Under the pieces are notes generated by a model. The model saw nothing but the letters and a program-made list of their open reading frames with translations. It was not told the origin of the DNA and ran no database searches. From Calycina herbarum (taxonomy: Eukaryota > Ascomycota > Leotiomycetes > Helotiales > Pezizellaceae), in the NCBI GenBank assembly GCA_001414485.1, contig LLEY01000076.1:124001-188000 (forward strand): a stretch of 64,000 nt of DNA, written 5' to 3'. How positions within the stretch are numbered: the stretch's first letter is position 1; every line of letters begins with the position of its first letter. Below are positions 2,921-48,111 of the stretch, piece by piece. The position numbers were made by a program, and so were the translations under genes.

Positions 2921-5900
2921 TCACTCCTCATCACTCTCCTCTTCAGCAACCTATATCAAAAAATTAGCAAGCCCATCCCCCTATTTAAAAGGGTAAGATC
3001 AAAAACTTACATCATCATGGAAAGTCTTCCCCTCAGTCGTTTCTTTAATCATCCCAATCCTAATACAAAAGTCTCCAAAGTGCTCCCCCTCCTCGCGCTC
3101 AAGCGAGTATCGCTTGAGCAGAGGCTTCATAATATCAAGAATCTCATCTTCCTTGATACTACTCCTGTACAACTTATTAAGACGTTGACCATGGTACCCA
3201 CCACCAAGGTACATATTATAAGCCCCAAAAGCCTTCCCCACAAACGCAACCTCAGCAAGCCAAGGCCGCGCGCATCCATTAGGACACCCCGTCATCCTCA
3301 TAACAATAGAATCCTGTCGCATCCCATTCTCCTCGATGACACCTTCAAGTTTGGAGATGAGAACAGGGAGGTAACGTTCACTCTCCGCCATAGCCAGTCC
3401 ACAAGTAGGGAAAGCAACACAAGCAGAGGAAGAAAGTCTCAGGCCCGAGAATTGATAATTATCAAGCTTGTACTTGGCCATCATCTTCTTCATCGCTGGG
3501 AGGTCGGCGTCATCGACATTGCTAAGAATCAAATGTTGATTACCAGTCAATCTGAATTCTCCCTTGTGGACCTTGGCAATCTCTCTCAGCCCAGTCTTCA
3601 TCGGGAAATCAGCCGTATCTTCTATACGACCATTCTCAATGAAGAAGGTAAAATGGTTGAGACCAACTTCATCTTTCTGCCACCCAAAAGTATCAATATT
3701 ACTCTGGAAATGGAAAGGTCGTGCCTTCTCGAATTTCTGGCCCCATAAATCTTCAACCTTGCTTCGGAAAACGTCAACTCCCATATCATCAATGGTATAC
3801 TTTAGTCTCGCATGCTTTCGATTCTTGCGATCTCCGTGATCACGCTGGACAAGCATAACCTTTTCACAGGCGATGTGAACTTGATCAGTAGTGACGAATC
3901 CAAGCGTGCTTCCAGTTCTTGGGTAAGTCTTCTTGTTGTTGTGCGTAACACCCATACCACCACCGGCGAGAAGGTTGAAACCAGCAAGGTGGCCATCCTT
4001 TCCCTTGATGGCGATGAGACCAACATCATGTGCGTAGACATCGGTGTCGTTGTGTGGAGGAATAGCAATTGTGATCTTGAACTTTCTGGGGAGGTAAGTA
4101 GGACCGTAGAGGGGCTCGAAATCTTGAACGGCATCACCAGCAACCTGAGTCTTCTTGTCGTTTTCGTCCTTGAGCCAAATCTCGTGATAGGCAGTTGTAG
4201 ATGGTAACAAGTGATCCGAAATCTTTGCTGAGCTAGCATAGACCTCATGATGGTATTTGGAAGCGGTTGGCAAACTACTGCACATGACGTTTCGGTTAAC
4301 ATCACCACATGCGGCAATCGTTGTCATCAAAGACTGGTTGATACTTCTCATGGCAGACTTGAGCTTTGTCTTGACAACTCCGTGGAATTGGAAAGTTTGA
4401 CGAGTGGTCAACTTCATAGTCTCGTTTCCGAAGTTGTTGCTGACATCGTCCATCTGGATCCATTGCAATGGGGTTGCAACACCACCGGGTAATCTGCATC
4501 GTATCATGAAAGAATATGCTGGCTCAAGGCCTTGTGCCTTACGCTCGTCCCGGAGATCTCGATCGTCTTGCATGTAGGTTCCGTGGAACTTGGTCAGTTG
4601 CTGATCTGCTGCTGAAATAGCAGCTGTGGTGGTGTCCTGTAGACCCTCCTCGATAGTACCTCGCAAGAAATTAGAGGCCAATTTGATATCCTCGTTGGTG
4701 ATTGGAGGTGGCTCGTCTGGAAGACCCTCAACCTTATCAACACCAAGAGCAGCCCAAATAAGAGGTTCCCAAGCCTGATAGCCAGTTTGGTAGCTATCAG
4801 GATCCTGGTCATCACCTAGACCAATCTCTGCAAGTCTCTTTCCTCCAAGATTTGCCATAACGCGATCGAGATCCTTTCCTGGCTTGTTGTAGTAGTGCTT
4901 GTCTTCCTTGCGAGGCCAGTAATGGCTGTCACCAAGGGCAAATATGGAGTAGTTGACATTTGCAAGATCCAACTCGGTATTATCCTTGATGGCATCCCAA
5001 AAAGCACGCCCATTTTGTGGAAACTCACCCTGACCTGCAGTACTTGAAAGGATGACGATATTTTGCTCAGTAGGTAGATCTTCAAGTGGGTAGTCCTCCA
5101 TAGCCATCACAATCGTCTTGAGACCACGAGCTTTGCCTCTGTTTCCAAGTCTCTTAGCCAAGGACTCAGCATTTCCGTTGTCAGAAGCAAAGAGAACGGT
5201 CAAAGGTGCCCCGAAAAGCCCCTCGAGGAGTTGAGCATAAGCGTCCTTTGCGTTACGCTTTTGAAGTGCTCGGACCTCAGTTCCATAATCCTGAGCCAAA
5301 TTGAAGGAAAATTCGGGATGTCTCTTCATCAATTGTGTGAGATGATTGTCACGAGCCAAGAAAGCCTTGAGCTCATTCTTTATCCGCTCGGAATCCAATG
5401 AAAAGTTTGGTTCTCCACGGGTCTCATTCTGAGGGTTCCATCTGTACAATGGCCAGTAACCCAAATCCACGGCTTTCTTGGTCTCCTGGAGAACGGTCAA
5501 AGGCGAGTCGTTCTCTTTGAAGTATGGAAGGTAGGCTACGACAACCGATGGACCATCAAATTGATCAGCCTCAATCATTGCCTGCAAAACCTGGGTATAT
5601 GAGCTGTAAACAGCGACAGATGCAACGTATGAATTGCCGTAGTTCATAGCGTATAGGCCAATATCCTTCTTTCGTCTTGAAGAATCTGCAGCTGATCGCT
5701 CCGAGTATGGAGTTGAGTCGATGATGAGCATGTTAACATTCTCGCCAGAAGCGATGACATGGTGAACACCAGAGTTGCCAAGATCATATGCCCAAGCATC
5801 TGACCCGACGAGCCAAGGGGACTCCTTTCGGAATAATCCCTTATTAGCAAGTAGTTCTTTCGATTTAGTAGATCCCTCTTTCTCGAGTAAAGCAATAATT

Positions 5901-7777
5901 TCTTCAGCAACCTCAGTTACCTCCTTTTCGTCCCCAGCACTTGAAGCCCACTTTGTAAATACAGCCTGTGCTTCCTTGTCAAAAGATTTCGAGTTCGCAG
6001 CAGCTTGAATCTCGCCAATCAAACGTTGACGGTGCTCCCTTCTAGCGACCAATGAACCAAATCCAAATTCGGGATTTGATGCAATTGAAGCAGATATTCC
6101 AGTGTTCTGCGATTCAAGGGCGTTGGCCAAATGTAATCGTTGCCCAAAAACTTGGTCCAATATTTTCATGTATGCTGATTCAACTTGGGGCTGGGATAAA
6201 TCATACGCCTTCTCCGATTCTAAAGGGCCCTCGGAATTTCCAACTTCGAGATTTTGAATTGGTTTTTCCGATTTGAGATTTTGGAAGACACCCCGCAAAG
6301 CCTGTGGAATGGCGTCTGGTGCGATATAACCTAATTGGTGTCCAACAATAGTCTCCACCCCGCCTCCAGGTCCAGATTTGAGTGTGGTGAGAAGATCCAA
6401 AAGTAAAGGTCCCCATTTTGTTGTCTTTCTTCGGATTTGTTCAAGAACCGCCAATCGTTTGATAGATTTTGGAATCGCGGCAGCTAATTTTGTTCCCAAC
6501 CATGGTCTGTATAATCGAGCAGTGATGACACCAGCTTTGGCGTAAATATCGCCCGTCTTTGCGGCATCAATTGCCTGAGCAAAAGCCCCTACATCAGAGC
6601 CAAAGACGAAAAGCGCATCTTCGGCATTTGAAGGTCCAGAATATTGAAATGGGGTGTATTCTCGTCCAACACGTTGCTTGAGCAGGACCCAAATACTCGA
6701 GACAAAGTTGTAAATATCATCCGAGTTGACCGGACGGGTTGTGGTCTGCTCGACAGTTGTCGCTGAAGAAGCCGAAGTCTTGCTCTCAACACTGCTCTCT
6801 CGCTCCGATTTCGAAGAACCGACAGAAGATGCTTTCGATGGGACCTCGGAGATAATTCGCTGAATTGACGGAGTTGTGGCCTCCACTCCCTCCATCGCTC
6901 CCGGAACAACATGGTCAGCGCTCTGAGTCTCGGTAATGGTCGCCACTCTTCCTTCATCCGCATATATACTCGTTCCACCAATTTTGCTAGCTTGGAATGC
7001 TCTGACCGCATCTAAGTTAAGAACTTCCTCAACAACCTGCGCATCTTCAGATGAAATATAGTTATCCTGAGCCGAGGTTCCAGCGCTGAAGAAATGTATA
7101 ACACCCTTTCCTGATTTGATAGCCAAAGCGTGTGCCGTCAAGGCAATATCTTGTGCCTCCTGCAAAGTTTCGGATTGGAGAAATGTAAATCCAGAATTGC
7201 GAATTGAGGTAATGGACGAGTAATCGGGGTACTGGGCGGGTTGCAGAGAGACGTGGATTACCACTGGTAGATTTGCGAGTCTATATAAGTGAGGCACGGA
7301 GGAGACGAGGATGGAAGAGGTTGTGGTGACCGCAACAAGTTTGCCATTTCGAATTGGCGTGAATACCGAAAGTAGTGGATCGGCATTATGTCTAACAGTT
7401 TGGATCTGCGAATGTATTAGTTTGTAACCCTCCACATGTTTTGTATCTCTCACGAACCTCAGGTACACCACTTTCGGTAGCCGCCACCAGACTTTTGTCA
7501 CCTCGCCCAGCGTATCTTTGTAAATGGGAGGAGAATTGCGAGTCAATTGACTGAGCAGCCTGGACCGAGACAATGACGTCGCTGGACAAATATGCAATTC
7601 GTGCCACTACACGCACCATCAACTTGTTAGCAAAAATGTCACCCAGTACGAATGTCAGTGGCACGCGGGGTTATGCGGATGCCCATGAACCCAGAAGGGC
7701 GGGGGGAAAGCACAAGCAAGTGTAGATCAATACATACCAGCTTCGCCAGGCGTACGGATCTCCAAGGGAGTAGCCAT
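2921..7777 (-). CDS. MET5: assimilatory sulfite reductase (NADPH) beta subunit
   Basis: Four exons on the minus strand, 7777-7738, 7606-7458, 7405-3011 and 2950-2921, give 1537 residues, close to the usual 1400-1550 of fungal Met5. The start is MATPLEIRTPGEA, split from the body by a 131-nt intron with a GCTAAC branch. Domains in order: an N-terminal pyruvate:ferredoxin oxidoreductase-like region, a flavodoxin-like domain from about residue 800 (FASDNGNAESLAKR, STAGQGEFPQNG), then the sulfite reductase hemoprotein core with the siroheme/4Fe-4S ligands in SACVAFPTCGLA (about residue 1395) and MTGCPNGCARP (about 1435). It reduces sulfite to sulfide for cysteine and methionine synthesis. The last exon encodes only an acidic tail, VAEEESDEE, after a short intron with a GCTAAT branch. 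Ending translation at the stop near 2999 would replace that tail with VSF. Confidence 0.93.
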
Positions 7778-26012: not shown

Positions 26013-29000
26013 CTACATATTCGCCAACTCAGCATCAATCATGCGATCCAAGTACACCTTTCGGTCCCCCACCAACTCAGTCTGCAACCTCTGCTCAACA
26101 AGAGCGCGGACTTGCTTCTTAGTAACAGTATCCAAGTCCACCTCTCTCAAGCAAGCCTGGATGGCGTCCACGATCGCCATATCGTCTGGGCCGGCATTTC
26201 CACGTTGGAAGTCAAATTGACTAGGCGTTCTCGCGCCCGAGAAGCCCAGGGCACTTCTTGAACGACCTCCCATTCCAGGCGAGCCAACTTGCTCAGGGGA
26301 CATCATAGCCATGCTAGGACGTTGCGAGTGTCCTTGTGGGTAATCCTGATAAGGAGATGCCGATCGATCTTGAAGATTTCCACCAAGAGACATCATGGAT
26401 TGTTGGCGGGTGGCTGGGTTATCCGTATACGGCGCGACGGAGTATACCGATTGGCGAAGTCCAGCGTAACCCGGTGAGACAGGTGGTGCGTAGTGGCTAC
26501 GACCCGGGAATCCAGTGAGGATAGTGGAAGCTGGTTTGACGGATGAGTACATGGATTTCATGTCATCCATCTCGTATTGATCCTCGTAGTTGTCATATGC
26601 CTTCTCGGCAGCAACGCCGCGACGACCAGGGAGGTTGTTGGTGAGGGCATAGTCGTCCCATCGTTGGAGAGGAATGCTTCGAGGGTCGAAACCCTCATCG
26701 TCGACAGCCACGATTTGTTTTCCGCCCTTCTCTCCAACGACAATACGGGTGTTACCCCACGAGAAGTTGTCTTGGTTCCAGAAAGAGTACATTGGAAGGA
26801 CGAACGAATAGATGGGGAAGGCGAGGATGTAGATGATCATCCATCCGATATGTTGCCATTGACGTTTGAGGATGAAGATAAGTGCCTGAAGACCATACAC
26901 GGCTGCTATCATAATGATGGAGATCAATGGGAATGGACCGGTATGACTGGCAACCAAGTAGATGAGGTACCCCAAGTATACAGTGGTCGCTGGCAAGATG
27001 ATTGTACCGAGAAGATCAATAAACACGACGAATCTCATACTGAAACAGCAGAAACCGCACATTTCCTTGATCCAGACCAATTCAGCCAAATTGTGGATGG
27101 TAGAGTTGATCCATCTACGTCTTTGAGATAACAGGACGCTCCAAGTTTCTGGTGCTGCGGTACTTGCGAAAGCATCGGGAATAAATTTGTAAGACATGTA
27201 TGGGAAGTGTTTGGTCATCAGGGTGGTAAGGAAACGATCTTCACCAAGAGATAACAAATTCTTCTTGTGTAAGGTATCAACAGAGCAATCGGAGTAGGCG
27301 TGAACGATGGCATCAGAAATGATGAGAGGTTTTCCTTTATCAGCGGTTCGAAGACGATACATGGAGAAACTATGAAAGTTAGCATTGGGGATTCTGGTGT
27401 TCAAGCATTAGGAGGGTATCCTTACCATCCAGGCAAACAGGTGACACTGCCAAAGAGGGATTCGAAGGCTTTGGCGAGATGATGAGAAATGTAGTACTCG
27501 TAAACTTGAATCATAGTCCACCAAGAGCGCTCTTCATTTTCAAGACTGGTCTCTCCACAAATACCCGCGATTTTAGCGTTGTTTGCACAAGCAGCGACGA
27601 GACGATTGAGAGAGTCCTCGCGAACACTTGTATCAGCATCAACCATGAGAAGATACTCGTAGAGTTCAGGATCGACACCGATGATATTGTTTATTTGATG
27701 GAACATCTCGAGTTCAAGTGGCGACATGGGGGATCGATGATGGACACGGTTTAAGAAGCTCATGAGGACGATTTGGGAGTCTCGTTTACCACGATTACCG
27801 GGCTTGGACTTGGACTGTTCGGATTCTTTGCCGACCTTTACCACGACGATGTAGGGAACGACATTTCCTTCGTACTCGTAGAGACCAGAGTAGACTTTTC
27901 CGTAATTGAGTTGTTCGCTGCTGTCTCCAATAGATTTGAAAGGAAGAGCGGGTGGGTCGATCTTGGGGTCGACACCGAGAATATCCAGAACAATTTTGGG
28001 TGTAGGCCTGTCATTACCCCCACCAACAATCATACCGTCACAAATGACGCAGATAAGTTTTCTTTTATTGTCATATTGTAAAGCGGTCAATGAGTCGAGA
28101 GCTTTTCGTAGCGAGTCTTCTCCTTCGGTATAGGCAGGGACTTGACAAATAACGAACTTGTCCTGTGGTTGTGGACGACGCTTGGAGCCGAACTGCAAAG
28201 CAGCCAAAAACTTGACCAAAATAACAGCGCAGAGAATGATGGTAAAGGCGAGGAGAATGTAGTTGTTGATTTGACATCGGACTGAATCACGGAAATCTGG
28301 AATTCCGGCAAAAAAGACATTGTTGAAACAATTCAAGTTGTTCGAAATGATGGTCTGTTCGGTAGAGTTGGCGGCGTCGTACATCTTATCCCATTGTGTT
28401 GAGATATCCATACCAGGATTGGCCTTGATCAAAGTCGATACTTTGTCATCGAGGAAAACATAGGAAGCCAAGTTGCCTTTGAGATCAGCGGTATAATAAT
28501 AGTTGGTCAGATCGTAGATTTTGCCCTTCAAAATGAACCACATGTGTTGATTGTCTTGTCCATCAGACTCGACCTTGCTCTTTTTGACCACCAAATCTCC
28601 CTTGTAGTATTCCTTGATCTTTGGCAAGAATTTTGAACCATACCAGTTGATGTCGTATAATGCACTATCCTGGAATGGTTGACGCTTTGGACCAGAGATA
28701 TGTTCAGCAGCACTGTTTGCAACAGTAGTATTGGGTAATAGGTAGATAGTGTCATCGGTAACAACACCTGGGCAGCCAACAGTGAGCGGGGGAACAAAGT
28801 AGTCGTCCAAGGCAAGACCAGCAAATTCTATCATGGTAGTTGAGGTAGTTTTGGTGGTGGTGTCACTGTGTTGAGTCTTGTAGAATTTGGTAAAATCGTA
28901 AACTTTGCCGTGAATGCTGGCATAATAGTCATTGGTAGCAGTGTGTTGGGCAACCTCAGCAGTATTCCATGCCTTGTCCTTAAGAGGGCAAAGAAGTTTA

Positions 29001-31438
29001 CCGAAAGCGACAATCCAGAAAATCATAAGAGCATTCGAGAAGAGAATTCCGAAAAACAGAACAAGCTTCTCTCGCCATGCAAGTCGGACATCTGGTCGCT
29101 TCATTCGACCGATGTACCGAAGAAGGAATGACGGAATCCAGAATGTCATGGCCCAGACAATACCAACCCAAATACGTCGACTCATGGTGGTTTCCGTGGT
29201 CGTGATACTCTTGGGTTCTGCCATTTCAGGGTCCATGCCACTGACCAACTCGCCGTGCTCATTAGTGTAGTATACTTGACCTTTCACGTCATCTCCTTTC
29301 AATCCAAGACCATAGTCACCAGCGCTGATGTTTCTTGAAGGGGCAATGGAACGGGCACCGAGAGCACTGCGAGGCATGGTTGCTGAGCTTTGTTGCCTTT
29401 GAACCAACATATCCCGACTCCCGTTGGGCGTTAATTCGTTCATAGGTTGGAAGAAACCACTTCCGTTGTTAGGACCAGACGAGTATCCCGTATCCAGTGG
29501 TTGAGCAGCCATTCCGAAAGGACCATCATCGGCGGGTTTAAGATCAAGCATGCCCTCTGCCTCCCACCAAGCGCTTTCTCTCATCCAAATACGTTCTGTA
29601 CCAACAACGACTTCTCCGTTGCTCCAACCACGTTCCATAATCCAGCTCTCGATGCCATCCCGGCCGTCCTTGCAGCCCAAAAGAGCATATCTCTGGCAAA
29701 ACTCATCGTGGTCAAAATCTGCTGTGAAGTCGAGATTCTTGTTCCTGCGGTTGGCCCATTCAGGAAGTCTCCATGCACGTAATTGCCTTGAAACTGTTCC
29801 AGCTGACCATGCTGAAGTGACGGATGGGAGTGAGGCAAGACTGGCGGGAGATTCATCGGTGGGGTGTAAGGATAAATGATGCCACACTCGACTTGTTCCA
29901 AGAACGGCTGCGAGATCAAGACGACCTTGACGACCGAGATTCACACCTTGACCCTCCACAGGGAAAAGAATCTTCTTGAGAAAACTATCCTCTTCGCCCT
30001 CTCTACCAACCTTCTCGAGGACGACTTCACGTCTCTCGAGCTCATGTTCACGCTCACGTCCGGCAGGTCCAGTCATAATACCCAGGTCCGGTCCCACTTC
30101 CGACAAGGCATTTTGCATCTCCCGCAAGACTGATGAGCCGGCAGCTACCACATCGACACCATCCTCCTTCATTTCGGCGTTGATTCCCTGGGTGTCATCA
30201 AAGACACCTCGCATAGCTGCTGCTTTTCCAAGTGTAGCATCCGGGATTTCCAAAACAGTGATGCAAACGGTATCCCCGTTATCCTCTTCTGTGTTGGGGG
30301 TTCTAGCACCTGGTCCACCATCACTTGAGGAATCGCCGTCCCGGATTCGCTGCATATGGCTGCTGATTGCCTCATTGGCTTTCAGAATGACCCAGTCGAC
30401 GAGAGCCTCGTATAAACCACCGATCAAAGTCTCGCGTTCCTGCATGCTGCATTGTTTGATGAGGACTTCTGGCTCGAGTCCCAGAAGCCCACCCACATCC
30501 TCGCATACTTCCTCCAAAGCTTCCTCGTCCAGATTGTAAGTTAGAGTATCACCAAGCTTCAGTAAACCGGCCAAAATCGATATCAGGTTTCGGTGGGCGG
30601 CTCCTTTGATTCCAATTTCCTTCAGGGCCGCTCTAAAGTCATCTGCGGAAGCAGCATCGTCTGCTGTAGGAAGATATGAAGGCGGATCGTAAGTTCCGGA
30701 TCTGGCAAGAAGAGTATAGTTCGAGGCATGTTTCAGACCCAAAAATTCGCGTTCAGCCGGTGTCGAGGCAGATGTTAAAAGATAGTAAAACACATCGAAT
30801 GCTCGGTATCCTGCCTCAGAAGGGATGCTGATCAATCCCTTCGAGGTGTCAATTCCGCCTTCGGATAAAGCTATGGAAGCTGCTGTAAGATTTCCTGCCA
30901 AAGTAAGAGTCAAGGTGATACCGAGGGCGGATTGTCGGGGCGTAGAAGGATTCTGTGGAGAAGCTGTATGTATGAAAGGTCGGAGGGCATTCAGGGCTGT
31001 ATACAATGTAGAAGGAATCGAAAGTGGAAGCGTTCCGAGGAAGGGTTCGAGCACTGAAGGAGTTGATGGATGTAGTGATCTTGTGAAGGGTTAGAAATGT
31101 ATTGTTTTGTTTCGAATGGGATTGACGACTTACGCTAATACGACACAACCGTCCTCGGCACGCCGTCTTGCATGTTCCCAAGCTCGAGCAGCTAATGCTG
31201 GATCGACGGTACCTCCTGTACGCCCTTCATTGTCAACTTGGGTAGCAGAAAGCCATGTGTTGACCACTAGACTGGTGCTTGCATCAAGCCTGTAAGGCTG
31301 CCCGGATGTGTAGATTGTATGTGTAGAATTCAGCAGAGTCGTGGTTGAGACCTGTGTGGATTGCTGAGCGGCGGGATTGATATTACGAGAGCCTGGGGCG
31401 GAGGAGGTAGTGGAATATGTTGAAAAGCGGTTCGCCAT
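26013..31438 (-). CDS. chsVII: class VII chitin synthase with myosin-like N-terminal domain
   Basis: Three exons, 31438-31134, 31079-27426 and 27369-26013, give 1771 residues, the usual size for class VII. The N-terminal 600 or so residues resemble the class V myosin motor but have no GESGSGKS P-loop. Then come transmembrane segments, a cytochrome b5-like lipid/haem fold region, and the glycosyltransferase-2 chitin synthase core: LMVDADTSV (catalytic Asp), LGEDRFLTT and [10 protein letters not shown] near residue 1400. Several C-terminal membrane helices follow, and a DEK_C-type domain ([29 protein letters not shown] split over its length) ends the protein. The second intron interrupts the conserved LPGCFSMYR segment and has a GCTAAC branch. 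It polymerises chitin from UDP-GlcNAc at the plasma membrane and is head-to-head with the class V gene. Confidence 0.93.
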
Positions 31439-34096: not shown

Positions 34097-37000
34097 ATGG
34101 CCTCGAACAATCAAGGTGGAGGGGCTCACTCGCAACCATCCCTTCCTGCCCTTCCTGCTCATCTTCAGTCCGATACGCATCTCACAGCACACCTTGCCAG
34201 CCGATTCCACGTTTCCTTACCTACTGCACAACTCTCGTCCCACGCGTTAATATCACTTAATACATATGCTTCTTCGAGCAAAGGTCCGGATGGAGGAAAG
34301 GAGGGATCCGCCATGGGCGGAGCGGAAGAGCTGGCAGAGAGAGCTTTCACCAGACTTGGTTCACGTTCGGAGAACCAGGCCGTCGTCTTCCTGTGAGTTG
34401 CAAGCCGTTGATAAGACGAAATAAACAAAACTAACTTTTTTTTCCAGCGGAGAATCTGGTTCAGGTAAATCAACGATTCGATCTCATCTCCTCGCGGCCC
34501 TCCTCCACAAGCCAAAAACACCGCTCTCCACCAAATTAGAATACGCCGCATATGTTTTTGACACATTGACAACCACCAAGACTGCTACAACACCTACGGC
34601 GTCAAAGGCCGGTCTGTTCTTTGAACTTCAGTATGATACGACATCCAGCGTTCACCCAACCCTGATTGGAGGAAAACTTTTGGATCACAGACTGGAACGA
34701 AGCAGAGTTGCGTCCGTACCAACAGGAGAACGTAGTTTCCACGTTCTTTATTATCTTTTGGCAGGAACTAGCCCAGCAGAAAAGAGCCATCTCGGCCTTG
34801 AAAATACAGCTTCTTTTGTAGCCACCCCTGGGCAGAATATCAGACAATCTGGATCCGCTCATCAGAAAAGATGGCGATACCTTGGCCACCCCACACAGAT
34901 GAAAGTGGGTATAAACGACGCCGAGGGTTTCCAAAAGTTCAAGACTGCTTTAAGAAAATTGGAATTCCCTAGGAGCGAGATTGCCGAGATTTGCCAGGTA
35001 TTGGCCAGTATTCTTCACATTGGTCAACTTGAATTTGAGACCACATCAGATACCACCACGACAGGGGATGATAGTGGTGGCTTTTCTCACGAGGGTGCTC
35101 AGATGGTCACCGCCGTCAGCAACAAAGATGTCTTGGGTATGATTGCTGCATTTTTGGGAGTAGGAGCCGCAGATTTGCAAACGACTCTGGGTTACAAGAC
35201 TAAGATTCTTCAACGTGAGCGTGTCACGGTCATGCTCGACCCCCGAGGTGCCAGAAGCAATGCAGACGAGCTTGCCCGGACTTTGTATTCTCTGCTTGTA
35301 GCATATGTTGTTGAAAGTATCAACCAAAGAGTTTGTGCAGTGGAAGAGAGTGTTGCAAACACAATTTCGATCATCGATTTTCCCGGATTCTCGCAGCAAC
35401 GCTCCACGGATTCTACACTAGATCAGCTTCTGAACAATGCGGCCACGGAATCCCTCTACAACTTCACCTTGCAGAGTTTCTTTGAGGCCAAGGCGGAAAT
35501 GCTTGAGAGCGAAGAAGTCAATGTAGCAGCCACTAGTTACTTTGACAATTCAGACGCTGTCAAGGGACTTCTCAAGCACGGCAATGGACTGCTCAGCATC
35601 CTCGATGACCAAACCAAACGAAGTCGAACTGATGCCCAACTTCTTGAGAGTCTTCGAAAGCGATTTGAGGGAAAGAACCCCGCGATCGCTGTAGGCAGCT
35701 CAACGGCCAGACTTCCTGGTAGCAATTTTGCAACCCACAACGCATCCGCTTCTTTTGCTGTCAAACATTTTGCCGGAGAGGTGGATTATCTCGTCGCTGG
35801 ACTCGTAGAAGAAAACGGTGAAGTGATTTCAGGTGATCTCATGAATCTCATTGCTTCTACCAAGAGTAACTTCGTTGGCCAACTTTTCGGCCAGGAAGCT
35901 CTACAAACTATGGTACACCCCCAAGAAAAAACTACCATTATGCAAGCTCAAGTCAGCTCCAAACCCCTACGAAAGCCTAGTGTCATGCGCAGGAAGGGCG
36001 ACCGCCCAAACAGATTTGGGACCCAAAAAAAGAGCAACCAGCAACTTTTCGGGGATTCAAACGAAGATGTCACAGAAATTATCGAACCCGACAATGGACG
36101 AAGAGGCCGCAATCTTGACCAAGGAGCTGCAGCACAGTTTCTCTCATCACTAGACAATGTCACCAAATCTCTTACTGCGCCAAATACCAACCCCTATTTT
36201 GTATTCTGTCTCAAGCCTAATGATCGAAGAATCGCCAATCAATTCGACAGCAAATGTGTGCGGACTCAAATACAAACCTTTGGTATCGCTGAAATCAGTC
36301 AACGATTACGCAACGCGGATTTCAGTCTCTTTCTTCCGTTTGGGGAGTTCCTAGGCCTTGCAGATGTCGATATCGCCTTGATTGGTAGCGAGCAACAAAA
36401 AGTTCAGATGGCAGTGGAAGAGAAAAGATGGCCTCAGAATGAAGCTAGAGTCGGTGCCACCGGGGTCTTTTTGAGTGAAAGATGCTGGTCAGAGATTGCC
36501 AAGTTGGGTGAAAGAGGCTTCATCGCAGGCCGATACCCTACCACTTCGGAATACGGAGGCGATGGAATGCTTACTCCCGATCCGAATGGCACTTATGGAA
36601 CTTCCAAAGATCGCCTTCTTTCCTCGCCATCGGGTCTCACCCCTTCTCCTGGTGCTTACATTTATGGGTCCGACAAGAAGTCTGGTTACTTCGGTAGCCC
36701 AGATGTCGACACACGATCTGAAGCCGGAGTGTCTGCTCTCGGTCAGGGTGACATGTTCCGAAATCTTGATACCAGAGAGCAAATGGCCGAAAAGGGCAAC
36801 GAGAAAACCATGGTTGAAGTCGAAGAAGTCAAAATAAGTGGAAGCCGAAAGAGATGGGTTGCCATGACTTGGGTGATGACCTGGCTCATACCTGACTTCC
36901 TCATCAAACATATCGGTAAAATGCCACGGAAGGATGTACGACAAGCCTGGCGAGAGAAGTTGGCCATCAACATGATGATTTGGCTGTCTTGTCTATTCGC

Positions 37001-39876
37001 TGCCTTCTTCATTGTAGTCTTTCCTATGCTTATCTGTCCAACACAGCATGTTTACAGTGCAGCTGAATTGACATCACAAAACGGCAAAGACGGAAACTCG
37101 GCCTATGTCAGTGTCCGAGGTACCGTCTTCGATCTAGGTGCCTTCCAACCCGTACATTACCCATCAATTGTTCCTTCGAAATCCATTTTGGCTTATGCTG
37201 GTTTGGATGCAACATCACTGTTCCCTGTGCAGGTCTCTGCTCTTTGCAATGGTGTAGACGGCACCGTCAACCCTCAGGTCTCCCTCGATTATTCAAGCAC
37301 CAATACATCTGGGTCCGCTGATGTGGTCAACACTGCCACTGATCTCAACTGGAAATATCATGACTTCAGAGCCTGGAAAACAGACGCCCGAAAAGATTGG
37401 TGGTTTGAGCAGTTCACGATGTTAAAGGCAAACTATAAAAAGGGCAACATTGGTTACACACCTGAATACGTCAAGACTTTGAGCAAGAAACAAAACTACA
37501 TTGCCATCTTGAACAGCAGAGTCTATGATTTTACCAAATATCTCGCTGGTGGTCGACGAGTCAATCCTATGGAGGGCGGAGATGGCACAGTCCCTACGGG
37601 AGTCAACACCGATTTCATGGACACCCAAGTCGTTCAGTTGTTCCAAATCAGAGCCGGTCAAGACGTGACCAAGTACTGGTTGGCTTTGGATATTAGCGAA
37701 GACCTTCGCTCTCGTATGTTGGTCTGTCTCGAGAACTTGTTTTACGTTGGTGATGTCGACACCAGAAACTCCATCAAGTGCAAGTTCTCAGAGTACCTTC
37801 TACTTGCCATCTCTATTCTTCTTTGCAGCATCATCGGGTTCAAGTTTTTGGCAGCCCTTCAATTTGGCGGTAAAAATGTGCCAGAAAATCTCGACAAGTT
37901 CGTCATCTGCCAAGTTCCTGTTTACACAGAAGACGAGGATTCCGTTCGACGTGCCTTGGATTCCGCTGCACGTATGAAGTACGATGACAAGCGCAAACTC
38001 ATCGTTGTTATATGTGATGGTATGATTATTGGTCAAGGAAACGATAAGCCAACACCTCGTATCGTGCTCGACATTCTAGGCGTCTCTGAAACCGTTGATC
38101 CTGAACCGTTGAGCTTTGAGTCGTTGGGCGAAGGTATGAAGCAACACAATATGGGCAAGGTTTATTCTGGTCTTTATGAGGTGCAGGGTCACATTGTGCC
38201 CTTCATGGTTGTCGTCAAAGTCGGAAAGCCTTCTGAAGTCTCACGTCCTGGTAACAGAGGAAAACGTGATTCCCAAATGGTCTTGATGAGATTCCTCAAC
38301 CGAGTTCACTACAACGCAGCTATGAGCCCTATGGAATTGGAAATGTACCACCAGATCCGCAACATTATCGGCGTTAACCCAACCTTTTACGAATTCATGA
38401 TTTGTATCGATGCCGACACTGTTGTTGCGCCAGATTCAGCCGCTCGAATGGTGTCTGCCTTCTTGGACGATACCAGACTCATTGGTGTGTGCGGTGAAAC
38501 TGCTCTTTCGAATTCCAAGTCATCTTATGTTACTATGATCCAAGTCTACGAATACTATATCTCTCACAATCTCGCCAAAGCTTTCGAAAGTTTGTTCGGC
38601 AGTGTTACTTGTCTTCCAGGTTGTTTTACCATGTACCGTATCCGAGCTGCTGAATCCGGAAAGCCACTCTTCGTCAGCCGAGAAGTGGTAGAGGCCTACG
38701 CAACCATCCGTGTCGACACCCTCCACATGAAGAATTTACTCCACTTGGGTGAGGATCGATACCTCACTACTTTACTCCTGAAGAATCACTCCAAGTACAA
38801 GACAAAGTATCTCTTCAACGCTCATGCCTGGACTATTGCTCCTGATACCTGGGCTATTTTCTTGTCCCAACGTCGTCGTTGGATCAACTCGACTGTTCAC
38901 AATCTCATGGAACTCATCCCGTTGCAACAACTTTGTGGATTCTGTTGTTTCAGTATGCGCTTCATCGTCTTTGTCGACTTGCTCTCTACACTCGTTCAAC
39001 CCGTTACTGTTGTCTACATCGGCTATTTGATTTACCAGGTCATCGCTCATCCTGCCGCTATTCCTATTCTTGCCTTTGTCATGCTCGGTGTCATTTATGG
39101 ATTGCAAGCCATCATTTTCATCATCCGCCGAAAGTGGGAGATGATTGGTTGGATGATTCTGTATATCCTTGCTATCCCAGTCTTCTCTTTCGCTCTCCCA
39201 CTCTACAGTTTCTGGCACATGGACGATTTCTCCTGGGGTAACACTCGTGTCGTCACTGGTGAAAAGGGTAAGAAGATTGTCATCACCGATGAGGGCAAAT
39301 TCGACCCATCTTCCATCCCAACCAAGAAGTGGGAAGAATACCAAGCAGAGTTATGGGAGGCACAAACTGCACGCGATGATCGATCTGAAGTCTCCGGCTA
39401 CTCGTATGGTACCAAGCACCCTGCTGCCATGTCGGAATATGGCTTCAACCCTGCTGCGCCCATGTCCCAAATGGGAGGCTATTATCCAAACGACAACAAG
39501 AGCGCACACCTTTACAACTCGCAATCTCGCATGTCATTGGCACATTCTGATGCTGCGGGCGATCACCGAAGCTTGTATGGCGGTAGCCAGTACGCTGGAG
39601 CTCAGGACCTCGAGCTCTCGAATCTTGCTGGTCTCCCCAGTGATGATTCGATCTTGGCTGAGATTCGAGAGATTCTTAAGACTGCGGATTTGATGACGGT
39701 TACGAAGAAGAGTATCAAGGTTGAGTTGGAGAAGCGGTTTGGTGTTGCTCTTGATGCTAGGAGGGCTTATATCAATTCTGGTATGTTTATTTCACCCTCG
39801 TTCCTTTTTCAAATTGTATTCATTGCTAACATGTTGATTTCTAGCTACCGAGGCTCTCCTTTCTGGTGCGTTGTAA
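34097..39876 (+). CDS. chsV: class V chitin synthase with myosin motor domain
   Basis: Three exons, 34097-34392, 34448-39780 and 39845-39876, give 1886 residues. The myosin motor keeps an intact P-loop, GESGSGKST (about residue 100, just after the first intron), and a DIPGFE-like IIDFPGFS. Then come two hydrophobic segments ([35 protein letters not shown]), cytochrome b5-like folds, a further membrane segment, and the chitin synthase core with [33 protein letters not shown] and [14 protein letters not shown] (about residue 1570). C-terminal membrane helices and a DEK_C domain follow. The terminal exon encodes only TEALLSGAL. The start chosen is [13 protein letters not shown]; an in-frame ATG at 34031 would add 22 residues. 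It is an actin-guided hyphal-tip chitin synthase in studied moulds. Confidence 0.94.
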
Positions 39877-40587
39877 GGATCTTCTTGGATTGTTTCGGGG
39901 GGATTTTTTGGAGGGGAGGGCAAAAATGCATTTATGGAGTTCCTTATTGAAATCTGTTTTATTGAGGGTTGGATTGTAGCAATAGTGAACGCAGGCGGGG
40001 AAAGGAAACTTTTTTTTCATGACTTTTTTTTGGGCGTATTGGAATTGAATCAAGAAGGGTGAGGGCATGCGCGGAGAGAGACAGAAGATAATAATACTAC
40101 TACTATTTATGTTTGTATATTGTTCGTGGAAAGACAGCCTCGTGTCTTGCTTGAAGAGTTTGTGAGCTTTGAATGAAGGTCTCGAACACTGCTAATGGAT
40201 TGAGGTTTGTTTCGGGGAAACCCCCTGAATCTCCCCCACAATTGGCGGGCCGCGAAACGCAACCTCGGACGATCTCCCCGATGCTTTTTTCATCAATCCC
40301 AAACCGTGGTGACGGGAAGAAGCTTGGGGATCGATGGATTTTCTCCGCAATAAATTTGATTTCTGGGGACGACGAAATAAGGAGTACGAAGCTGTCTGGG
40401 GTGGTGGGATGTTAGATAGATTGGGCTGTAATCTTAGGGGATTGATACATATAAGGAGGGAGTTTGGCCCGGTCCGAAAACTCGGTCATTATCAAGCTTT
40501 TTCCTCTATTTATTTTTTCGAGTACTGCATTTTTGAGAAGACCGACTTGAGATTAAGCAGAAAGAAACGAAAATACAAAACGAAAAG
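39877..40587. other. intergenic region, no gene seen
   Basis: The 3' flank of the class V chitin synthase and promoter of the small secreted protein gene. Short ORFs only. Confidence 0.45.
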
Positions 40588-44376: not shown

Positions 44377-45351
44377 GTTGAAGGACTTGCTCCGAAAAGA
44401 AGAGGGTACATGGCGATATTCTTTGCGGGTCAGAAGACCAGATTTGGTGGGGAAAACTTCTTGCTCAACGGATGGAAAGGAAAGATGGAGGAGAAATGGA
44501 GAAGAACTCTACTTTTATACTCGTTAGCGCCAACCACCAATCCCAATTAGGAAACGGCAACGGTCTTTTGCTGCAGATCGCAGAAGCATTTCGATGTCAA
44601 CAAAAATTAATTGAATTTCCTTAATTGGGTAAATCAAAGTTTTGTTGCAGATCGCGCATGCTCAAGACCCTGTCAATGGAGTATGGTAGAAGGTGATAGA
44701 ATGCTTTACTAGAAATGAAAGAACTTGAAAACTTACTCAAATAGGCAGGAACGGCCCGGACTGTAGATTGATGGAGAAGATAGAGGAAAAAGGCAGAAAA
44801 AGTTACTTTTAAGCTACTAGCGCTAACCTTTCCACTAAACTAAACTTTGCAAGAATTGGCTCAGTGAATTGGCAGGAGCGAGTGTGTTTGGTTTCAAAAG
44901 TGAAGTCTACCGTCCCAGATCATTCTCGCTAAAAAGACTGGCGGATTGAGCAGACCCACCAGGAATTCGTGACTGTAGCCCCGTCGCGCTTTTCCTTTTA
45001 CAATTGTCCTAAAATTCTAGGAGAATAAAGTAATACAAACATAATTATTCTAGTTGTTTTGGACAATTAGATTCTTTTTCCCAGTCTTGGTTGAACAATC
45101 GGGCAGGCAGAGCACAGGGAGCCTACTCTTGGCCAGTCACGAATTCCTACACCCCCTGGTGAACCTGTAATATCTCAATAACCCCTCTCTAGTTTCTCGC
45201 AAGTCGTTCGAAAAGAAATCACTAGTCAGTCATGAACCATATTTCCCCAAAATAAAAATTGTATTTTTTGATACGCCTATATAATTCCATCCCAGTGGAT
45301 TCACCGGATCCCACAAATTGAAGTCCCATGGTTCCTTGATACATACTCGTT
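44377..45351. other. repeat-bearing intergenic region upstream of the unknown gene
   Basis: Contains two pairs of direct near-repeats. One is built on CTACTTTTATACTCGTTAGC (44509) versus a similar TACTTTTAAGCTACTAGCGC (44804). The other is TTGCTGCAGATCGC (44568) versus TTGTTGCAGATCGC (44643). The inverted-repeat element at 44957-45161 is also here. No gene seen. Confidence 0.5.
44957..45161. mobile_element. MITE-like inverted-repeat element, second type
   Basis: CACCAGGAATTCGTGACTG at 44957-44975 is repeated inverted at 45134-45161, where the right copy carries a small extra segment (CACCAGG...GGAATTCGTGACTG). An inner inverted repeat, ATTGTCCTAAAAT versus ATTGTCCAAAAC with CTAG, lies around 45002-45068. 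The element is about 205 bp with no ORF. The architecture (outer TIR plus inner palindrome) parallels the 8230-8469 element, but the termini differ. Confidence 0.65.
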
Positions 45352-48111
45352 TATGCAGCAGCTGCAACGGCAGCATTGCTAGCCTCGACAGCGGCTTGCT
45401 AGTGTGTATTAGTGCATGCCCAGAGGAGAGAAAGAGAGAGAGAGAGAGAGAGGAGGTAAGATTTGAGATTTTTAGGGGTGATGTGGGATAGTGGGAGGAT
45501 TTATTGCGTTATGCGGAGAATTCTAAGAGAAGAGGGATCGGGATGCCTGGTTTTGTCTCCGAGATCTCTTCGTATAAGGTATGCCATGTATGGCGGTGGT
45601 GGGGTGGAGTGATTTCCCTTTAGGTCTTGGAGAATTCCGGAGTCTTCAAAGTGATAATTCAAAACTCTGAAGTACTCATTCTATCCGTAAGAAGAAGAAA
45701 AGAGGATCAAGGCACTAGTGCCTTTCATTCCCCAAAACCTCTCCGTACAAACTAGAAAATAGCCTGGGAAGTTCATTTCCCAAATTATGACGGATCTCTT
45801 GTGTTTAAGATATAAGAAGAGAGATTGAGCACGTACAGCTTGTGCAAGTGGGTCGTTTGCGGCGGCACCTCCAGCGGCAGCGGCCTGAGAACGTGTTAGC
45901 TTGATATTCGTCGAGGTAAATCACGTGAGGGGTGGTCAAGAAACGTGTATGGGGCTGGATGGAGGGTTTTACGTACGGCAGGGGCGGCTGATGCTTTCGC
46001 GGCTTTGGCGCCTTTTCCTTTAGCGGCTGTGGCCCCGGTCGCTGCCTTTTGAAGAGTTAGCTTGTTGTTTCTAGTCTCAGTGTGTGGAAGGAATAGGTTA
46101 GGGAGGAAAGTGTATACTAACTGTTGCTGCTGCTGCCGTTGAGGCGGCACCGGCCTTCCTGCGTGTTAGTAATGCTTCTAGAGTGATGCTGGATATCAGA
46201 GTGTGCTTACTGCTCCTGCTGCGCTTGCCTGGAGATTTGTTAGCATTGTGATTGTGAAAAATTAAGAGGGAGGGTGTTGATTACCTTTGCTGCCTTAGCC
46301 GCTGCTTTTCCTGCCTTTCCGGTCGCCGCGGTCGCTGCCTAGAAGAACGTTAGACTGGTCTTTGAAACGTATTCCAAGCAAAGGAATCTGGGTACAAAGT
46401 ATCGAAGGGAAACAACTGTAACTAGAATTGGTGGCTCGGTTTCTTGTGCAACAGGATAAGTGGAACTTTGATAGAAATAATGAGCGCAAACAAGATTCCA
46501 CGATTCACTCGAATCACCAAGACGGTCTACAGTTGTATTCCTTGATATGTTGTCGATCTTCGTCCTCTCCATCGTCCTCGGCTATCGAGCGAATCACGTG
46601 ACTCCAAACACTTCCGTATTTTTCGCACCACAATCGGGATTGAGGGACAGAGGACGAATGTATGGGTATCAGATGGGTATGCAGGTCAAGGATAACTCAC
46701 TGTTGCATCAACAGCTGCACTGGCGGCTGCAGGGGCCGCCTAGATTGTGTTAGAATGCATCTTTTGACATTATCAAGGGGGGGGGAGAACGTACGGCCGC
46801 CGCACTAGCCTTAGCTGCCTTAGCCGCTGCTTTTCCTCCCGCTGCGCCTCCGGTCGCGGCGGTTGCCTAAATGAACGTTGTCAGTTGAGTTTCATGGAAA
46901 CGAGTGCTATTCGACCATCCAATTCCAATTCCGCGAGACCTCATCGAAAGTATAGTGCAAGAGATATTGGGACAATCATGATTCCTGCTTCACAACTTGG
47001 AAACTGATCATCCTCTATCTCTCCGCTCAGAAGATTTTATTTTCGTGGAGGCTCTTGAAGAATTGGAAATGAAGCGATGTAGACGGCGAAGTGGATCAAC
47101 ATCATTCAGATCTCGTATGGGAGTACTCACGGCAGTCGCCTAGTTATTTGTTAGTCTTAGGGCTCTTCAGAATCATTAGATGAAGGTGAGAAACTTACTG
47201 CACCAGCATTCGCAGCACCAGCATTGGCGGCCTTTTGGCTATTAGTATATAACAACATACTCATTGAATAAATCGACTTACAGCGGCCCCCTTGTTTGCC
47301 TTAGCCCCAGTTGCCTACAAGGAATATTGTCAGTTGTGTCCTCTCGATAGAGTACTTGACCATCCGTATCCAATTCTGCCAGGTCATTCTGAAAAGTTAA
47401 AAGCCTTCGAGTCGAGACGAAACGTTTAGAGAATCATAAATCTAGTTCCAAAAGAACAATGACTTGTAATCTTCTATCCATTCACACGAAAATTGACTCC
47501 ATTCTCGTCGGAGTCAAAATTCGGAACAGATCCAAGTGTAAATTCGAAAGGATCTTGTGGCAACTTTGAACATCTCGGGTAGAGAAGAGAGTGACCAGTC
47601 TGAAAGCTTGTATGTACGCTCGGGTCTGTTTAGAATATTGGCCCCGATGAGTATTCGTTGAAAGTCTGGCAGAATCAGGTATGGCGTGATGTGCACTAAA
47701 AGGTAGAATGTTGGGTAAATCTCACTGCTGTGGCCTAGTAATTTGTCAGTTTAGTTCTCCTCAATGACTCGATAGATGTAGAAAACATACTGCACCAGCA
47801 CCAGCTGCTGCACCTGCATTCGCGGCCTTTTTCAGTCGTTAGTTTGCAATCCTATGCCTCTAGAGTAACGTAAGACTCACTCCTGCAGCTTTTGCTGCCC
47901 CAGCCCCGGCGGCCCCAGCCCCAGCACCAGCTCCGGCAGCAGCTCCGGCACCAGGACCTTTACCGGCTCCTGCTTTCTTTTGTCTTCTCTCTAAGTCATA
48001 TGCGATGTTGGAAGAGATATCTCTTGAAACAGCCAGACCGTTGTTTGGTACTGGAGATGTGTTGACGGCAACGAATGCGGAAAGAACAAGGATAAGAGGA
48101 GTGAATTGCAT
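45352..48111 (-). CDS. secreted Ala/Gly/Lys-rich protein encoded by 14 phase-0 exons, mostly mini- and micro-exons
   Basis: Exons (minus strand): 48111-47881, 47826-47791, 47734-47726, 47314-47282, 47231-47199, 47139-47131, 46866-46795, 46739-46701, 46338-46285, 46228-46211, 46154-46122, 46045-45977, 45884-45837, 45399-45352. All lengths are multiples of three and all introns are phase 0; the total is 243 residues. Exon 1 encodes a signal peptide (MQFTPLILVLSAFVAVNTS), a short pro-region and a dibasic LERRQKK site, then Gly/Ala repeats. Exons 2-14 encode 166 residues, 97 of them Ala by my count, with Gly, Lys and Thr, no Cys and no aromatics. Two internal exons are 9 nt (Ala-Thr-Ala). Donors are GTAAGT/GTGAGT/GTATGT/GTACGT-like. 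In exon 11 the second of two nearby AGs is needed to keep frame. Function unknown. The splice pattern is inferred from sequence, so exact use of each exon needs RNA evidence. Confidence 0.8.
45427..45452. repeat. (AG)n microsatellite in the last intron of the multi-exon gene
   Basis: An AG dinucleotide run with a few interruptions lies in the 437-nt final intron; on the transcribed strand it is a CT-rich tract just upstream of the last acceptor region. Confidence 0.8.
46867..47725 (-). repeat. tandemly duplicated three-exon block (exons 2-4 and 5-7)
   Basis: Exon 2 (AANAGAAAGAGA) matches exon 5 (AANAGAANAGA), exon 3 and exon 6 both encode ATA, and exons 4 and 7 both begin A-T. The long introns before exons 4 and 7 also match at their 3' parts (GAATTGG..GGATGGTC and CAACTGACAA..TTC..TAG), which shows that introns were copied with the exons. 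Exons 7, 9 and 12 are a further related set (AAATG-, KAAAKAAK-type), each preceded by an Ala-Thr-ending exon in the case of 8/9 and 11/12. Confidence 0.7.

Follow-up and report, generated by a model that had tools for sequence, protein, structure and literature searches.

Symmetric phase-0 micro-exons in a predicted gene for a probably secreted Ala/Gly-rich protein of Calycina herbarum

Gene model and splice grammar

The DNA analyzed here is a 64,000-nt stretch of the ascomycete Calycina herbarum (assembly GCA_001414485.1, contig LLEY01000076.1, positions 124,001 to 188,000), referred to below as the window, and its subject is a minus-strand gene of 14 mostly very small exons running from position 48111 to 45351, which would code for a secreted, basic Ala/Gly-rich protein. 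An original prediction made from the sequence had placed this gene at 45352–48111; it indeed lies there, on the minus strand, but its stop codon ends one base outside that range, at 45351. The exon boundaries were set by reading the sequence and were then checked by script, with no gene predictor used (Table 1). All 14 exons have lengths that are multiples of three, all 13 introns are in phase 0, and each of the 12 internal exons (9–72 nt) starts with a GCN codon for Ala, whereas the last exon opens with Gln. Exon 1 terminates at the phase-0 donor GTGAGT, and the two 9-nt exons (3 and 6) both encode Ala-Thr-Ala. The joined product comprises 243 amino acids, 117 of which are Ala, and contains neither Cys nor Trp. 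Nine of the introns measure 50–92 nt and the other four 264–438 nt, and branch-like sites are present ahead of the acceptors in the form of CTAAC (8/13 introns), CTGAC (3/13) or CTAAT (2/13).

The arrangement was compared with chance by means of a strict grammar consisting of a CTRAY branch site, an [ACT]AG acceptor within a short distance, an exon of 9–75 nt and a GTRNGY donor. The minus strand of the locus contains 14 such cassettes of any kind, nine of which are open, begin with Ala and have a length divisible by three, and the plus strand contains none of any kind under the same grammar. Nine of the 12 internal exons of the model pass, while exons 3, 9 and 11 fail on their donors. Across both strands of the window, 224 further overlapping segments, each as long as the locus, contain at most four cassettes of any kind, at most one open cassette and no Ala-first cassette. 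First-order Markov shuffles of the locus (300 replicates) reached maxima of 10 cassettes of any kind, three open and one Ala-first, with means of 1.24, 0.21 and 0.01, respectively. The corresponding maxima were 9, 3 and 1 in 240 segments drawn from 200 kb on 13 contigs of the same genome, where a single Ala-first cassette occurred in seven segments and no segment had more. The cassette grammar at the locus is far above these controls, which, together with the script-checked rebuild, confirm the originally predicted fourteen-exon structure with phase 0 throughout and 12 Ala-first internal exons.

A 9-nt Ala-Thr-Ala exon flanked by strict splice sites was found only at this locus in the fungus's own genome. 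For exon 11, the AAG acceptor was preferred to an upstream CAG because the latter breaks the frame. The four long introns divide the gene into the exon clusters 1–3, 4–6, 7–8, 9–13 and 14, and intron 3 resembles intron 6 (z of 6.3 against 60 shuffles). A relaxed scan of the long introns for low-complexity cassettes yielded no hidden exons, and no sign that they are dispersed repeats was obtained, the whole locus matching only itself in a genome search that skipped simple repeats.

Table 1. Features of the gene model and of the duplicated blocks within it
Feature	Length (nt)	Positions	Strand	Product or content	Basis and remarks
Exon 1	231	47881..48111	-	signal peptide (hydrophobic core, by inspection), short pro-region, LERR/QKK with the presumed cut at the slash, first Ala/Gly run	
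Exon 2	36	47791..47826	-	AANAGAAAGAGA	model and strict grammar; AAG acceptor
Exon 3	9	47726..47734	-	ATA	model; donor outside strict grammar
Exon 4	33	47282..47314	-	ATGAKANKGAA	model and strict grammar
Exon 5	33	47199..47231	-	AANAGAANAGA; duplicate of exon 2	model, grammar and self-alignment; AAG acceptor
Exon 6	9	47131..47139	-	ATA; duplicate of exon 3	model, grammar and self-alignment
Exon 7	72	46795..46866	-	ATAATGGAAGGKAAAKAAKASAAA	model and strict grammar
Exon 8	39	46701..46739	-	AAPAAASAAVDAT	model and strict grammar
Exon 9	54	46285..46338	-	AATAATGKAGKAAAKAAK; duplicate of exon 7	model and self-alignment; donor outside strict grammar
Exon 10	18	46211..46228	-	ASAAGA	model and strict grammar
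Exon 11	33	46122..46154	-	AGAASTAAAAT	model; donor outside strict grammar
Exon 12	69	45977..46045	-	AATGATAAKGKGAKAAKASAAPA	model and strict grammar; AAG acceptor
Exon 13	48	45837..45884	-	AAAAGGAAANDPLAQA	model and strict grammar
Exon 14	48 (including stop)	45351..45398	-	QAAVEASNAAVAAAA	model
Long intron 3		47315-47725	-		
Long intron 6		46867-47130	-		
Long intron 8		46339-46700	-		
Long intron 13		45399-45836	-		
Duplicated block 1, copy 1		47721..47831	-	intron 1 end, exon 2, intron 2, exon 3, intron 3 start	
Duplicated block 1, copy 2		47126..47236	-	intron 4 end, exon 5, intron 5, exon 6, intron 6 start	
Duplicated block 2, copy 1		46809..46879	-	intron 6 end and most of exon 7	
Duplicated block 2, copy 2		46284..46351	-	intron 8 end and exon 9	

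Relatives and duplicated cassettes

A search with residues 1–50 of the product returned the reading frame P0001, which is the closest relative (93% identity across 88% of these residues), and two profile searches added 8 and 11 further frames, resulting in 20 relatives; P0002, the window's own frame, was left out of all counts. The 11 new relatives of the second profile search have E-values of 2.2e-25 to 7.3e-12. Both profile searches scored only the top word-sharing candidates (7984 and 7985), and the family may be larger. Nearly all of the relatives look like unspliced frames that stem from assemblies of metagenomes and read sets (sources jgi, ena and lgn, the meaning of the last being presumed). 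The only one with a named organism is P0021 (ncbi, nr), recorded for Cadophora gregata f. sp. sojae, an ascomycete of the Helotiales, as the 118-aa hypothetical protein ONS96_004848. Queries with the locus, exon 1, P0006 and P0017 matched only this locus in the fungus's own genome (68.8 Mb, 379 contigs), giving no paralogues, and pattern searches for the relatives' DNA in viral and prokaryotic genome collections gave 18 and 37 matches, none of which was confirmed.

All 20 relatives contain the dibasic site in the forms LERRQ, LEKRQ, LKRRQ, VERRQ, MEKRQ or LEKRR (variants listed by eye), which bears out the prediction of a secreted-looking protein with such a site. It is preceded in the relatives by an NTSPVP-like segment and by a hydrophobic N-terminus, which was recognized by inspection; the start of P0007 differs. 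The Ala/Gly run behind the site ends at Val in 19 of the 20 relatives by inspection, with P0007 as the exception; an automatic rule places Val there in all 20, but in P0007, P0018 and P0021 this Val sits within the run. A Val at the run end is a possible read-through of a phase-0 GT, Val making up 7% of these proteins, and the donor motif GTRNGY fits the run end in 13 of 18 relatives examined, P0016 and P0020 being outside this set because they were scored as 'no motif' under a narrower motif. These counts come from mutually related sequences and do not represent independent trials.

For the region behind this presumed donor, we examined whether the protein letters allow for a branch site, an acceptor directly ahead of GCN, an in-phase exon of low complexity and a further donor, placing the first donor at the Val without demanding GTRNGY. 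The test set consisted of 19 relatives after P0007 was dropped for its run without a Val end, and 13 of these were too short (at most 13 codons past the donor). An Ala-first phase-0 exon fits behind an intron of 51–55 nt in five of the six relatives with at least 28 codons past the donor, which supports the predicted construction from symmetric phase-0 micro-exons. The respective readings are an intron of 51 nt and an exon of 57 nt in P0012 (AGAGGAKAAAGGGAGGAGA; passing in 16 of 300 shuffles of the downstream residues), 51 and 36 nt in P0017 (AGAKAAGTNAGA; 8/300), 55 and 24 nt in P0015 (1/300), 55 and 27 nt in P0019 (2/300), and 52 and 9 nt in P0001 (5/300). P0012 and P0017 are the plainest cases, since in both the intron keeps the frame and the Ala/Gly/Lys module that follows is directly legible. 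In P0001, the exon 1 tail is shorter than that of the window gene, and the 9-nt reading is compatible with a single micro-exon where the window gene has a 36-nt and then a 9-nt exon; on this reading, cassettes would therefore have been gained or lost between close relatives. The gene and these relatives form a family with a recurrent exon grammar, which is undescribed as far as we have seen.

The locus might also not be coding at all and instead give rise to a non-coding RNA, or represent a chance series of GC-rich islands that mimic Ala codons and lie between motifs resembling splice sites. This would agree with the lack of domain matches to exon 1, for which neither Pfam nor NCBIfam, a library made for bacteria and archaea, gave any. 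Among the relatives, the domain scans covered four of the 20 and likewise gave no match, with Pfam for P0006, P0012, P0017 and P0021 and with NCBIfam for P0021. The grammar controls in the window, the shuffles and the genome speak against a non-coding locus, as does the fact that both exon 1 and the cassette grammar are conserved in the relatives. We regard a non-coding locus as very improbable and take the locus, with high probability, to be a real coding gene.

Self-alignment of the gene revealed two duplicated blocks (Table 1), whose copies are 74% identical across 116 columns (block 1) and 78% identical across 74 columns (block 2). Because these blocks span exons and introns alike, the cassettes multiply together with their splice sites. 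Silent changes account for 9 of the 11 differing codons in the three block-duplicated exon pairs, and exons 3 and 6 differ in all three codons, every change being silent. In the exon pairs 7/12 and 9/12, 12 of the 15 and eight of the 11 codons that differ, respectively, do so silently; these pairs were kept out of the former count because no duplicated block links them. The predominance of silent changes in the block-duplicated pairs suggests selection on the encoded residues. A neutral growth and decay of the low-complexity tail, where only the N-terminal part or the bulk Ala/Gly composition is needed and duplication is unselected drift, would explain why the length of the Ala/Gly run varies strongly among the relatives, whereas exon 1 is conserved up to the dibasic site. 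Against such drift, the silent differences in the duplicated exons, albeit from a small sample, and the strict composition and frame point to selection, and we consider it improbable.

The use of Ala codons is mixed (GCA 40, GCC 33, GCT 29 and GCG 15) and does not resemble that of a fresh triplet expansion. Adjacent Ala residues share the same codon in 19 of 54 pairs, compared to 14.8 expected. On these counts, simple triplet slippage does not seem to be the main source of the tail.

Probable secretion, processing and splicing

We consider it probable, judging from the sequence, that the gene product is a basic protein rich in Ala and Gly which is secreted and processed by Kex2, that its tail lengthens and shortens in evolution as symmetric intron-exon cassettes are duplicated or lost, and that the exons are mostly spliced constitutively. 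Exon 1 would provide a signal peptide directing the product to secretion. The only dibasic pairs are RR at residue 42 and KK at residue 45, and fungal Kex2 sites are usually KR or RR and less often KK, according to the available excerpt of PMC6339444. Kex2 would cut after RR and release a single basic chain, about 200 residues long, with an N-terminal Gln; the chain from Gln44 has an isoelectric point of 10.5, with 17 Lys and three acidic residues. The release of many small peptides is not expected from pairs at these two positions only. The mature chain would be rich in Ala, Gly, Lys and Thr, probably disordered, and built from short symmetric phase-0 Ala-first exons, each forming a cassette with the flanking intron parts. 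With one phase at all boundaries, a duplicated or lost cassette alters the length of the chain, but never its frame. The secreted chain might act at the cell wall or surface.

Short introns in combination with CTAAC branch sites favour constitutive splicing by intron definition. Because nine of the 13 introns fall in the short size range usual for fungi and eight contain CTAAC, we favour a mostly constitutive joining of the exons, of which some may perhaps be optional. Alternatively, in line with the original idea of a combinatorial generator of secreted Ala-rich peptides, the locus may be a combinatorial gene that uses varying selections of its 12 symmetric exons to produce many secreted variants, possibly tuned to a stage or host, much as differential splicing makes variants in the micro-exon genes (MEGs) of schistosomes. 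Its architecture resembles that of the MEGs, as they are described in the available excerpt of PMC10526429. As had been predicted for any subset of exons, each internal exon can be removed without a frame shift, and the AAG acceptors of exons 2, 5, 11 and 12 and the off-consensus donors of exons 3, 9 and 11 could render exons optional. However, cassette duplication alone already predicts symmetry, and the short introns with CTAAC argue for constitutive splicing; combinatorial use of the exons is therefore possible in our view, but unlikely. Block duplication inside the gene and the differing first cassettes of the relatives already explain the exon symmetry. If splicing is mostly constitutive, the symmetry would serve evolution, cassettes being added or removed harmlessly, rather than necessarily the cell. 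A more far-reaching proposal would be an independently evolved fungal counterpart of the MEGs, namely an apparently single-copy locus whose symmetric Ala-first exons, the 9-nt ones among them, are combinatorially spliced into many secreted, Kex2-trimmed, cationic Ala-rich chains, within a family in which the set of cassettes changes from species to species by gain and loss and which ordinary gene prediction overlooks or cuts short; taken as a whole, we consider this doubtful.

Several points weigh against the constitutively spliced, cassette-built secreted protein favoured here. Within the gene, the donors of exons 3 (GTGAGA), 9 (GTAATC) and 11 (GTTAGT) are weaker, and 4 of the 13 acceptors are AAG (exons 2, 5, 11 and 12); the boundaries of these exons are less sure. 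The silent-change counts are small, and alignment favours equal residues. Regarding the family, some relatives were only weakly recognized in the first profile search (P0008 with an E-value of 0.0096, P0009 with 0.054 and P0010 with 0.33), and the strong E-values of P0008–P0010 in the second search follow from their inclusion in the profile. GTRNGY does not fit the run end in P0004, P0007, P0014, P0017 and P0021, leaving P0017, one of the two plainest cases, with a first donor off consensus. The exons of the relatives were derived from read-through protein letters rather than DNA, and the branch distance, an extra donor form and the low-complexity rule of the test were chosen after a first look. 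Moreover, exon lengths of 9, 51 and 60 nt are all compatible with P0001, and P0021, the sole relative with a named organism, yielded no cassette (3 of 300 shuffles pass), perhaps as a result of its gene model. Inspection of P0014 suggests that its exon 1 continues directly into the following module, the intron having possibly been lost. Finally, the location at the wall and the function of the chain are guessed from its composition only.

Such a symmetric small-exon family would represent a compact fungal system for studying the recognition of 9-nt exons where introns are short, and the way in which exon cassettes, instead of slippage, drive the evolution of secreted proteins of low complexity. 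It may also mark a blind spot of annotation, with P0021 recorded as a hypothetical protein of 118 aa versus the 243-aa model obtained here.

About 190 bp past the stop codon of the gene lies a dispersed repeat of about 205 bp (44960-45164) with perfect 15-nt terminal inverted repeats (44961-44975 and 45134-45148) and at least 46 matches in the genome including itself (84 candidates, 40 of them scored), which looks like a miniature inverted-repeat transposable element. Elsewhere in the window, two divergent large frames at 27422-31090 (minus strand) and 34425-39950 (plus strand) resemble chitin synthases; the latter contains myosin head, Cyt-b5, chitin synthase 2 and DEK_C domains, and the likeness of the former was judged by eye only. 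Such a pair is reminiscent of the class V/VII genes of filamentous ascomycetes. A 1535-aa frame at 2999-7606 (minus strand) matches the assimilatory sulfite reductase hemoprotein subunit.

Comparison with known systems

According to the original prediction, no such gene was known to have been described in ascomycetes, and our searches of open-licence papers for micro-exon genes of secreted fungal proteins likewise showed none among the papers listed, which is not proof of absence. Membership in the MEG, bicycle, SP7 or KEP families was considered and rejected, as each fails on at least one tested feature; the comparisons below refer to the available excerpts of the cited papers. Schistosome MEGs code for secreted products by 10–20 exons of 6–81 nt, mostly multiples of three, and are hard to annotate automatically; they comprise 35 genes with introns of 0.1–5 kb and carry a hydrophobic-aromatic Trp motif after the signal peptide (PMC10526429). 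The fungal gene shares the many very short exons, all 12 internal ones being multiples of three, but its introns of 50–438 nt contrast with those of up to 5 kb, its Trp-free protein lacks the motif, and one copy was found in this fungal genome versus 35 genes.

Aphid bicycle genes contain many small internal exons, almost all in phase 2, and code for putative secreted effectors with CYC motifs (PMC9168663). They have in common with the gene described here that many small internal exons of one phase make up a putative secreted protein, but the phase is 0 instead of 2 and the protein contains no Cys. The SP7-like effectors of arbuscular mycorrhizal fungi are fungal secreted proteins with a signal peptide, as is predicted for the product here, and further similarities are their imperfect repeats and a conserved intron before the first repeat. 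The repeats are hydrophilic with a signature island, a nuclear localization signal is present in several cases, and the effectors are described as specific to Glomeromycotina (PMC11333574). The excerpt mentions this single intron rather than a separate exon for each module; the hydrophilic repeats contrast by inspection with the Ala/Gly-rich tail found here, and the sole named relative belongs to the Helotiales rather than to Glomeromycotina.

The fungal KEX2-processed repeat proteins (KEPs) have a signal peptide and a Kex2-type site, as is predicted for our protein, but their Kex2 sites lie between repeats (PMC6339444), whereas one dibasic cluster precedes the tail in our protein. The Xlr2 gene of Trichoderma, also a filamentous ascomycete, contains one microexon in a transcription factor, which acts as a switch (PMC11121469). 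Xlr2 and the gene described here both have microexons in an ascomycete, with a single one in Xlr2 and an array in a predicted secreted protein here.

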